Source of the DNA: a virus
Strand: one strand, 5' to 3'
Virus record (IMG/VR): IMGVR_UViG_3300020582_000035
Span: 1 to 21,504 of that record
Length of the DNA: 21,504 bases
The notes under the pieces are model-generated. The model did not search any database. It saw nothing but the letters and a program-made list of their open reading frames with translations, and was not told where the DNA came from. Shown here in pieces: positions 18,221-21,504 of the stretch (the first letter of the stretch is position 1; every line of letters begins with the position of its first letter). Position numbers and translations under genes: made by a program.

Positions 18221-18438
18221 GGAACTGCGTCAGGTCTGGAAAAGTTGCTCTTGTCGGTCGGCGCCCATTCCAAATCCTCGCGTTGTGTTGCGGCCGAGGT
18301 TATCCCCCGGTAGCGCACAAACACGTAGTTCGGATTGAGCGAGGTAATCACGCCTTCCTCGGGCGCAGCGTAGCCCGAGCGGTCGCGATAGATCACCCGC
18401 CGGCCGATGTCCTTGTCCGTTGCATCAGGCGTCAGCAT
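18217..18438 (-). CDS. Small conserved phage protein, SH3-like (73 aa)
   Basis: The start is ATG 18436-18438 (MLTPDATDKDIGRRVIYRDR), overlapping the stop of the GcrA-like gene by 7 bp; the upstream extension of this frame lies antiparallel in phase over that gene and looks non-coding. The protein matches a small family I know from many alphaproteobacterial phages: D-I-G-R-x-V-x-Y, then EEGVITSLNPNYVFVRYRG and ATQREDLEW. Its alternating strands suggest a small SH3-like barrel. Members are usually found among structural or packaging genes and have no established function. Confidence 0.72.
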   Translation of the reverse strand: MLTPDATDKDIGRRVIYRDRSGYAAPEEGVITSLNPNYVFVRYRGITSAATQREDLEWAPTDKSNFSRPDAVP

Positions 18439-18689
18439 CCGGCCAACGACGCCAGTGGCGGCAGTGTCACCTTGCCGGCGCGCTCTCGCAGCCGCGGCGC
18501 GCGCGCCTCGGGCGGCGTCTCCAACATCGCCATCCCAGGTTTCGCACTGACACCCTTGCGCCAAAGCTTCCCCATGACCGCCTCGCGCGACACGCCCAAC
18601 TGTGCCGCGATCTCGCGCGGGTTTTTCCCCTGCCGTTTCAGCCGCAGGCACTTTTGCCAGAGTTCATCCGGCCATTCGGGGTTTGCCAT
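18432..18689 (-). CDS. GcrA-like helix-turn-helix protein (85 aa)
   Basis: An 85-residue protein whose first 50 residues (WPDELWQKCLRLKRQGKNP, then REIAAQLGVSREAVMGKLWR) closely resemble the DNA-binding N-terminus of the alphaproteobacterial cell-cycle regulator GcrA (W-T-D-E...L...G-x-S-x-x-x-IA..LG.vTRNAVIGK..R.GL). The remainder is Arg/Pro-rich and lacks an obvious sigma-binding domain, so this is shorter than host GcrA. The start shares a base with the portal stop (TGATG at 18687-18691). It could redirect host GcrA/CcrM-controlled transcription, or be a small terminase-like DNA-binding protein, since it sits beside the portal gene. Confidence 0.72.
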   Translation of the reverse strand: MANPEWPDELWQKCLRLKRQGKNPREIAAQLGVSREAVMGKLWRKGVSAKPGMAMLETPPEARAPRLRERAGKVTLPPLASLAGC

Positions 18690-20563
18690 CAGGCCGCCGC
18701 GCCCTTGCCTTTGCCCTTGCCGCCGCCGGACAGGACCTTCGCCAGCGCTTCGGGATCACGCTGCATGAGTTGCGCCATCATCTGTTCGTGCTTCGCTTCT
18801 TTCTCTTTCAATGCCTGGAGCGCCATGTCTTTGTTGGGGAACGGCAGCGTTTCCAAGGCATATTTGCCGTCGACGATACCGGACTTGAGCCCGAATGACA
18901 CCATTTGCACGTGATCGTCGGCGAAGATCGGCGAGCCCGAATGACTGTCCACCGCAACGCGGCGGTCGGATGGTATGTCGGCCAGCAGGAACGCCGTCTC
19001 GCCCGGCTTGTCGGCGTTCGTCCAATAGGCTTTGCCATCCTTGGCTTGCATCAGCGAAAAGCGTAGATCAGCGGCGTCCGCGCACTGACGTTCGACAAGC
19101 AGAGAACGGTCCCTCAATCGGGGGGATGCGGTTTTCAACAGGGTGCTTGCATGCACGCCAGCGCGGACACCTTCCTCGCCGCGGCCAGACAGCAAGTTGT
19201 CAAACCCGCCGATCTGGTCGATGACTTTCATGATCAACTGCAACATTTCCATCGCTTGCGGCGGAAACGTCGGCGTCAGATCTTGCACTTTCCCCTGCGG
19301 CCCAAGGTTCGCGTAGCCCGCGGTGCGAAACTGCGCGTATCTCTCATCATTCGGCATGCCGTCGCCTTCAAAGGCGAGGATCTTGTCAATCTGCAAGCCG
19401 AACAAGCGTTTGATGTCATCAGCCCAGGACGCGAGCAAGCCCTGCGGTTCCATCAGGTCGACGATCTCCGGCATGCCCCAAAAATAGCCGTGGACCATGT
19501 TCGGCTGGATCAGTCTATACGGGTGTAGCTGCGACCCTTGGCCGGGGATCAGCAGATTGCAGCGTTTCAGCAGAGGGGCGATGAGTATATCAGGCTCGAT
19601 CAGTTGGACCGTTGTGTAGTCATCCCCATCCCATATCCAGAGTTCGTGAAACTTGACTACCTCAGCCTCGATCCGCGGTGCCACCACGGCATAAGACGGA
19701 TCCTGATTGAGTTGCACGATACCGCCCGGCCGCGGCCGGTTGATGCCGAACGGCGAGGTGTCCAACTGCGACACCGAAAGCACTTGATGGAAGAACGAAT
19801 TGAATTCCTCCGTGCCAGCGCCCTTGCGCATGCCGCTTTTGATGCGATCGTAGAGCGCGCGCGCGTTCGGCAGATGGTAGATCCGTCGCCACACCTCCGG
19901 CGGCGTCAAGAGCGATGTCTCGACCATGCACGGCTGCTGGTCTAAGTCATTCTGATCCTCGCGATACACGCCGAATTGCCACGGCATGATGAGCGACTTG
20001 CGATAGCCCACGCCACCATCGGGACCGGAGCGATACGGCGACTGCTTCAAGATGCTCGCGCCGTATTTGAGGCTTTCGTAGACGCCGAGCGAAAACGTCA
20101 TGTCGGTGTTGGTCATCTCCCACTCACGGGAGAGCAAGCGAGCGGACACCGCGGCGCGTTCAAGATGAGATTTTGTGTAGTCTCTTTCGTAATCAATAGA
20201 GAACCGTAGTTCGGTCGGCGAGAACAGATGCGCGGCTAGACGATCAATGTGCGTCCGCATAAGATTGATCAGCGCCTTGCCGCCGTCGCTGCGTCCGCTC
20301 TCGATGAAAATATTTAAGGCGCGACAATACGCCGACCGGTCGCCTTGGCTCGCGCGGCACGTTTGAATCAATTCTAAACTCAAGTCGATAAGTTTGCTGT
20401 TTTCGTCGGGCAGTTGCCACAAAGTCTCGGGCGGTGGCTTGGCAGGACCGCGCTTACTCTCGCCGCCACGTCGGCCGCGAGATTGGAATGGGATCACCTC
20501 GCCCATGCTGGAGAGGCGGGAGTCTTCTTCGGGCGAGTTCTCTGCTGATCGGGGCATGGGCAT
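18689..20563 (-). CDS. Portal protein (624 aa)
   Basis: A 624-residue protein with the length and layout of podoviral portal proteins. An N-terminal basic/Ser-rich stretch is followed by helical domains (LINLMRTHIDRLAAHLFSP, DYTKSHLERAAVSARLLS). The centre has beta-rich wing segments (KFHELWIWDGDDYTTVQLI, then PDILIAPLLKRCNLLIPGQG, PYRLIQPNMVHGYFWGMPEI), then the stem helices (PQAMEMLQLIMKVIDQIGGF) and a Gly-rich SGRGEEGVRAGVHASTLL. It ends with an acidic/basic coiled helix and a GGGKGKGKG tail. The start ATG at 20561-20563 (MPMPRS) is preceded by a weak GGTG; a second ATG two codons on is an alternative. The ring it forms is the DNA entry and exit channel of the head. It is the first gene left of the terminator-like hairpin and array. 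Confidence 0.8.
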   Translation of the reverse strand: MPMPRSAENSPEEDSRLSSMGEVIPFQSRGRRGGESKRGPAKPPPETLWQLPDENSKLIDLSLELIQTCRASQGDRSAYCRALNIFIESGRSDGGKALINLMRTHIDRLAAHLFSPTELRFSIDYERDYTKSHLERAAVSARLLSREWEMTNTDMTFSLGVYESLKYGASILKQSPYRSGPDGGVGYRKSLIMPWQFGVYREDQNDLDQQPCMVETSLLTPPEVWRRIYHLPNARALYDRIKSGMRKGAGTEEFNSFFHQVLSVSQLDTSPFGINRPRPGGIVQLNQDPSYAVVAPRIEAEVVKFHELWIWDGDDYTTVQLIEPDILIAPLLKRCNLLIPGQGSQLHPYRLIQPNMVHGYFWGMPEIVDLMEPQGLLASWADDIKRLFGLQIDKILAFEGDGMPNDERYAQFRTAGYANLGPQGKVQDLTPTFPPQAMEMLQLIMKVIDQIGGFDNLLSGRGEEGVRAGVHASTLLKTASPRLRDRSLLVERQCADAADLRFSLMQAKDGKAYWTNADKPGETAFLLADIPSDRRVAVDSHSGSPIFADDHVQMVSFGLKSGIVDGKYALETLPFPNKDMALQALKEKEAKHEQMMAQLMQRDPEALAKVLSGGGKGKGKGAAA

Positions 20564-20569
20564 ATATCA

Positions 20570-20606
20570 CCAAAGAGAAAGGGGCGATCCCCGAAAGAAT
20601 CGCCCC
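20570..20606 (-). terminator. Terminator-like hairpin directly upstream of the portal gene
   Basis: On the minus strand GGGGCGAT (20606-20599) pairs with ATCGCCCC (20588-20581) around a 10-nt loop and is followed by TTTCTCTTT (20580-20572). That is the form of an intrinsic terminator for transcription coming from the right. It ends only about 8 nt before the portal ATG, so there is no room for a separate promoter. Portal expression must therefore involve readthrough or antitermination, or the hairpin is a 5' UTR control or processing element. Confidence 0.6.
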
Positions 20607-21019
20607 CCTCCCAGCCTATCGGCGACCGCCAGACCTTGCCTCGACCAACCCCGGCTGGCCTCGGCCTTCGTCGACCGCCACGCCATCACACGGCTTTCCT
20701 CGCCGAGCCATTACACGACCGCCTGACCATCGCGGTCCACGACCGACCATGCCGGAACCCCGGCATGCCACGACCGCCTAAACGAGCCCCGCCTAACCGA
20801 GCGGCGCCTAACCGCCTCGCCAGGACTTGCCTCGCCTAAACCACTGCCCACCCCGCCTCGCCGAGCCAGGACCGCCCAGCCGCACCGAATCGTGCCGACC
20901 CAGGCCATTCCAGACCCTTGCTACCCACGGCCTACCCCGACCGGCTCGCCTTGCGCCACCTCGCCCCTGCGGACCAAACCAGAACCGCCAAACCCACCAA
21001 GCCCAGCCAGACCCGTGCA

Positions 21020-21046
21020 GACCCGTGCTGCCTCACGTCGACCGCC
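21020..21046. repeat. Long direct repeat copy 1 in the GCC-phased array
   Basis: These 27 bases, beginning GACCCGTGCT and ending ACGTCGACCGCC, recur at 21303-21330 with one extra C. It is the longest near-identical pair I found in the array and shows block duplication on top of the short-word periodicity. Confidence 0.85.
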
Positions 21047-21302
21047 GAACCGAGCGCCAAAACTCGCCTAAACCGCCTTCGCGATCCGACCGAGCCAATC
21101 CAAGCCCTTGCAGGACCGCCAGACCCCGACACGCCTTGCCAAGCCGTCACCCTCCTATGCTGCCCGCGACCGCCGGGCCTTGGCTTTCCGCTCCCAGGAA
21201 CGCCCCGCCCCGACTCTCCACGACCGCCAGCCTGACCAGAGCTTTGCAGACCCAGCCTCGCCTTGCGATTCCACGACCGCCAAGCCAGACCGAGCCTTTG
21301 CC

Positions 21303-21330
21303 GACCCGTGCTCGCCTCACGTCGACCGCC
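21303..21330. repeat. Long direct repeat copy 2 in the GCC-phased array
   Basis: Twenty-eight bases matching 21020-21046 except for one inserted C after GACCCGTGCT. The copies start 283 bp apart. Confidence 0.85.
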
Positions 21331-21504
21331 AGCCCGCGCCGGACCGTGACACGCCAGCCCACACCATGACCGGCTTTGCTTGCCGAACCGTGACAAAGCC
21401 CGCCGTGCCGTCCGCGACCGCCATCGCTTGCCGTCGCCAAGCCAAGCCGTCCCATGACCGCCAAGCCGTGCTCAGCCAATCCACGCCACGCCGAAGCTCG
21501 CCAC

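Follow-up and report, generated by a model that had tools for sequence, protein, structure and literature searches.

Positions 20607-21504 of the window, a 21,504-bp stretch that is an entire IMG/VR record, very probably hold the vrRNA array of a phage-borne VIPR system, encoded on the minus strand and including what looks like a guide against the CapV motif. CapV is the phospholipase effector of CBASS, an enzyme for bacterial self-killing upon phage infection. VIPR (Viral Interference Programmable Repeat) is an RNA-guided relative of CRISPR that is carried by phages, with SUSP1 and a P. fulva prophage as described cases (PMC13142463, 2026). A VIPR system is defined by a Vipr RAMP protein and by vrRNAs in which GGY triplets alternate with dinucleotides (NN), with 9-16 pentamers per guide. 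Decoding uses a 1-nt skip, mostly at codon wobble positions, and Vipr with its vrRNA forms an RNP, binds DNA by the 1-nt skip, and represses transcription (PMC13142463). The VIPR system itself is already described. A decoded guide against a CBASS effector is absent from the main text of that preprint, which names satellites, prophages, and other VIPRs as targets and contains neither CBASS nor phospholipase; its supplement may list such targets or the array architecture reported here (PMC13142463).

Period and units of the array

The array is non-coding and reaches the end of the contig at 21504, so it is truncated and part of it is missing. A sequence-only reading of the window had described a C-rich array at these coordinates with 13 exact GACCGCC words at somewhat irregular distances, and all of this was confirmed. 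The plus strand has 417 C compared to 204 G. The 13 words, against 0.7 in dinucleotide shuffles, are mostly 40-55 nt apart, with further spacings of 74, 92, 98, and 170 nt, and GCC occurs 80 times compared to 49 in the shuffles. The same reading had proposed a 5-nt phase with a longer super-period. Excess autocorrelation was found at lag 5 (20 GCC pairs vs 2.8 in dinucleotide shuffles, z 10) and at lag 93 (18 pairs vs 2.4, z 10.8), but the Fourier period is 4.88-4.90 nt and not 5.0. The spectral peak lies at 4.86-4.92 nt in all sub-windows of the array, with little 3-nt signal. The period falls slightly below 5 nt because each GACCGCC word contains one 4-nt step within a 5-nt lattice. Selection appears to maintain the rhythm, one of the two explanations that had been suggested.

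Read on the minus strand, the array is a series of about 17 repeats, each consisting of GGCGGUC followed by (NN GGY)n. An HMM that combined GGY-NN pentamers with GGCGGUC headers divided this strand into about 17 units, with 150 triplets altogether and mostly 7-10 NN per unit. The parse gives the alternation of GGY and variable NN that is characteristic of vrRNAs, with GGY at 55% and GNY at 69% of triplets and several phase slips. The header nearest the contig end is at 21456-21462 (minus strand). Further headers start, in plus-strand coordinates, at 21416, 21324, 21275, 21222, 21168, 21114, 21040, 20870, 20772, 20717, 20673, and 20624, and variant headers are at 21368, 21071, 20983, 20939, and 20810. 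The assignment of the array draws on autocorrelation, the spectrum, the HMM parse, and the like grammar found beside vipr genes elsewhere.

Identical direct repeats with unique spacers, as in CRISPR arrays, are absent; no repeat conserved along the array greatly exceeds the 7-nt word in length, and a tandem repeat finder gave only short local matches in it. Searches of the array against phage records with blastn and against Rfam gave no match. The global RNA fold of either strand is near that of shuffles (z -2.0 and +1.5), which argues against a large folded RNA. Between headers there is no conserved structured 3' tail like that of SUSP1; only the 7-nt GGCGGUC recurs between guides. Such a tail on each vrRNA belongs to the SUSP1 clade (type II) and is not claimed for all types, and other VIPR types have other array architectures, for example "staggered arrays with overlapping vrRNAs" (PMC13142463). 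The missing tail therefore bears on the type of VIPR and not on VIPR as a whole.

A 17-bp hairpin with a U-rich 3' side (20575-20612, minus strand) separates the array from the portal protein gene (18689-20563, minus strand), which lies downstream on the same strand and was identified by tblastn to annotated phage portal proteins and by gene order in relatives. The hairpin has a folding energy of -34.5 kcal/mol compared to -21.4 in shuffles (z -4.8). It was not among the calls of a simple terminator scan. We consider it the likely, predicted end of the array transcript. A small ORF at 18432-18689 (minus strand), MANPEWPDELWQKCLRLKRQGKNPREIAAQLGVSREAVMGKLWRKG, has the look of what we take to be a GcrA-type regulator, presumably a hint of an alphaproteobacterial host.

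The same grammar beside a conserved gene

A pattern search of IMG/VR for three successive occurrences of GACCGCC-N33..50 matched at least 120 loci. Among the matches listed, 28 of 120 have arrays with the same 4.9-nt period and skew. Across arrays, 197 of the 246 word-to-word distances of up to 100 nt equal 4 modulo 5. With few exceptions, the arrays lie between two genes when read along the G-rich strand, one of about 255 aa before them and one of about 165 aa after them. A profile search found the ~255-aa gene at 26 of the 28 array loci and at none of the 92 other pattern loci, among the matches listed; at the two array loci without it, the array is at the edge of the examined stretch. Starting from the gene instead, 93 loci were fetched from IMG/VR and GTDB genomes, and an adjacent array with the 4.9-nt period was present in 90 of them, with at least two GGCGGTY headers in 50. 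The gene has 513 relatives in IMG/VR. The GGY fraction of gene-linked arrays ranges from 0.22 to 0.67, and the window array, at 0.55, falls inside this range.

The sequence-only reading had suggested a search of other phages for similar arrays between terminase and portal. Dozens of independent contigs, as well as bacterial genomes, do show the same grammar, which is therefore not an artifact peculiar to the assembly of the window; in the stretches examined, 80 relatives of the phage do not have it at that site. Two stretches were noted along the way. L094:2451-3000, on a 64-kb viral contig, is G-rich with a 5.02-nt period, and no vipr was detected in the part examined. L154:1701-2825, on a 70-kb contig, is a 15-word GACCGCC array; the 2.8 kb examined there contain no vipr gene.

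The linked gene and its resemblance to Vipr

The ~255-aa protein belongs to PHROG 4652, a family annotated without function. Its profile matched PDB 36pp, "SUSP1 Vipr protein," with an E value of 0.0016, or 1.3e-5 with a broader alignment, and this was the only match below E 0.1. An AlphaFold model of the protein (pLDDT 67) resembles Csm3, Cmr4, and other Cas7-type RAMP chains; VIA-align Z scores reach 7.4 at most, which is middling when taken alone, but nearly every match listed is a RAMP. By profile and predicted model, the array-linked protein is a RAMP (Cas7-like) protein that matches SUSP1 Vipr. Pfam and PADLOC searches with both linked genes gave nothing convincing. The predicted fold of accessory gene B, which may still be a known one, is helical with no match in the PDB. 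The window contig, which ends inside the array, carries no vipr gene.

Of the roles offered in the sequence-only reading, a minus-strand, NNGGC-rich non-coding RNA fits best, given the (NN GGY)n grammar and the linkage to vipr elsewhere. An R-loop element and a decoy array are unsupported, as the array tracks the RAMP/Vipr gene wherever it is found.

The window array shares with the VIPRs of SUSP1 and the P. fulva prophage its tandem GGY/NN pentamers, its location on a phage, and decoding by a 1-nt skip at wobble positions; in genomes other than the window, such arrays are also linked to a RAMP-fold Vipr and a small accessory gene. It differs in its GGCGGUC headers without a folded 3' tail, its long contiguous form, its decoded target, a CBASS effector, and the lack of vipr on its contig. 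Class 1 CRISPR-Cas, in which Cas7, Csm3, or Cmr4 assembles on a crRNA, resembles it in the RAMP fold of the linked protein and in the logic of an oligomer on RNA. In contrast to those systems, the window has no CRISPR-type repeats and spacers and no cas operon, and the guide is discontinuous with a period of 5 rather than 6. The spacing of triplets by 2 nt also resembles TRAP-binding RNA, in which GAG/UAG triplets every 5 nt are read by a protein oligomer. The window array has other triplets, and its guides are variable and match genes. The idea of a TRAP-like binding track, entertained at first for the array, was dropped after the match to Vipr.

A guide that matches capV

Decoding of the window array covered 14 runs, each with 7 or more NN. 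The unit at 21175-21228 (minus strand) contains 10 NN: GT GA GG GG GT TG GC AA AA CC. Decoded with a 1-nt skip, it reads GTN GAN GGN GGN GTN TGN GCN AAN AAN CC, which are codons for VDGGVWANNP. Nine of these NN, an 18-base gapped pattern, were searched against IMG/VR, and 8 contigs matched at 18 of 18 specified bases. All 8 matches are in patatin-like/CapV phospholipase genes, on the sense strand, at the DGGVWANNP motif of the catalytic Asp, and in all 8 the skipped base is the wobble position. All 10 NN are matched in two of the loci (L228 and L230). PADLOC identified the four matched genes tested as CBASS phospholipases (E 1e-91 to 1e-110), and genes for CD-NTases (oligonucleotide cyclases) adjoin the patatin gene in five loci. 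When the full guide was searched with up to one mismatch in 230 alphaproteobacterial genomes, there were 4 matches compared to 0 for the reversed pattern, and all 4 are patatin-like by their DGG motif. As predicted from sequence, the pairing of this guide with capV would have the wobble-phase, 1-nt skip of VIPR. Since the CapV matches share a conserved protein motif, they do not single out the natural target gene. The guide looks directed at a CBASS effector, a class of target absent from the main text of the preprint (PMC13142463).

The scan of the full viral collection used four guides of the window: the CapV guide and those from 21167, 20869, and 20672. The latter three, as 18-base patterns, had no matches there. 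Those from 21167 and 20869 also gave nothing beyond the control level in the 230 alphaproteobacterial genomes, and the window guides had no significant match in 2.4 Mb of fetched loci. Among the guides scanned, only the CapV guide has a convincing target. With 14 guides, many conserved motifs to hit, and only four guides scanned against the full collection, the CapV reading could be a coincidence, the guide being aimed at an unrelated gene outside the databases searched. We regard this as quite improbable, since the matches comprise 18 of 18 bases in 8 contigs, all within a single gene family and with the same strand and frame, and three other patterns of the same length gave none.

A second unit, at 20817-20876 (minus strand), contains a single 6-nt step and can be read as CT TC GA GG GG GT T(T/A) GA AA CT. 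If the dinucleotide at that step is taken to be TA, this gives LSDGGV(Y)DNL, which is the motif of a different family of patatin-like proteins. An 8-NN pattern from this unit had 3 matches in 101 genomes, all patatin-like by motif, compared to 0 for the control. Because TA was chosen after the fact, this less certain reading is suggestive only, and the unit may be a guide to a second family of patatin-like proteins.

The length of the skip was examined with 783 pooled guides against 6.7 million positions on both strands (E<0.01), with shuffled NN order as the control. A 1-nt skip gave 9 matches compared to 1 for the shuffled guides, while skips of 0 and 2 nt gave 1 and 0 matches compared to 1 and 1. 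A 3-nt skip gave 13 matches compared to 2; this excess is attributed to copies of arrays, because a skip of 3 reproduces the array's own period, and the attribution is a general one rather than a hit-by-hit result. With the 1-nt skip, a guide from the array of L101 matches L114:7373 at 16 of 16 decoded bases. Both are VIPR phages, which fits targeting between phages.

Proposed mechanism

Transcription of the minus strand would produce a G-rich RNA in which variable NN separate the GGY triplets and which ends at the hairpin. The GGCGGUC words would act as guide boundaries, dividing the RNA into guides of about 8-10 NN. The vipr gene would lie beyond the end of the contig; a divergent vipr is present in two sister phages (G019 and G029), and in L164/L169 vipr lies between two arrays. 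As in the published mechanism, a RAMP-fold Vipr would coat the vrRNA, the GGY bases would not pair with the target, and the NN dinucleotides would pair with the target DNA, skipping one base at each step, usually the wobble base, so that the target gene would be repressed (PMC13142463). The VDGGVWANNP guide would then bind and silence capV and counteract CBASS. Because this guide encodes the CapV active-site motif, the array probably serves, at least in part, to silence defense genes of the host or of prophages.

More broadly, VIPR arrays may be a form of RNA-guided counter-defense, with this one silencing capV, and perhaps a second patatin-like family, through invariant active-site codons. 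We put the chances of this at about even. Under a counter-defense role, hosts could not escape by synonymous change, because the wobble bases are skipped. The description of VIPR dates only from 2026, and few clades have known natural targets. If the reading is true, VIPR would be an RNA-guided anti-CBASS weapon with a guide aimed at the catalytic motif of a named anti-phage effector. The grammar, with its 4-nt header step and spacings of 4 modulo 5, should also show, across the 513 IMG/VR relatives, what sets the limits of guides when an array lacks tails.

The phage lineage and the origin of the array

A portal-based pattern search in IMG/VR gave no match, and the capsid gene was used instead. 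It places the window in a phage lineage (80 loci) with contigs of up to 62-67 kb. The relatives have the terminase gene directly before the portal gene, usually with a small zinc-ribbon-like gene. In the stretches examined, none of the 80 has the array beside its portal or terminase genes. This weighs against a recognition site for packaging or replication, which had been proposed from the position next to the portal gene. The position itself is correct, with the hairpin and then the portal gene following the array, but it is incidental to function. In L164/L169, an array-vipr-array arrangement precedes a terminase gene, and this, like the adjoining portal gene in the window, would suit a structural or binding-site element. 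Arrays elsewhere track vipr and not packaging genes, however, and together with the absence from 80 relatives this makes such an element barely credible.

The array might instead have been joined to the contig from another phage during assembly, as it lies exactly at the contig end, where relatives have the terminase. Such a chimera is very unlikely in our judgment: the hairpin forms a clean boundary between the array and the same-strand portal gene, and vipr genes are present in sister phages of the window lineage. A decaying or orphaned array, acquired from another phage, without vipr and with guides that are relics, would account for the phase slips, the GGY content of only 55%, the absence of vipr from the contig, and the close relatives without an array at this site. 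We think this rather unlikely, since 900 nt of array retain the period and the headers, all 10 NN of the CapV guide are intact, and the regularity is within the range of vipr-linked arrays. The vrRNA array of a phage-borne VIPR system remains the preferred reading. The portal and capsid of the window and the terminase of a relative had no match among 79 further vipr loci, and the exact arrangement of the window was therefore not seen in any relative. In the closest relative by capsid, IS200/IS605-type transposon-like genes, as read from sequence, occupy the site of the terminase in the others, just upstream of the portal gene (L002:353-1659).

The sister phages G019 and G029 (L224/L225) belong to the window lineage and carry divergent vipr and accessory genes. 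The L225 protein matched PDB 36pp with an E value of 6e-4. The divergent Vipr (PHROG 4652) and accessory gene are at L225:1480-2124 (plus strand), extending to 2586, and on the minus strand in L224. The intergenic region of L224/L225 contains repeats of about 100 nt that share a AAATGAAAAGTTT...TTTGCCA element, apparently another vrRNA architecture.
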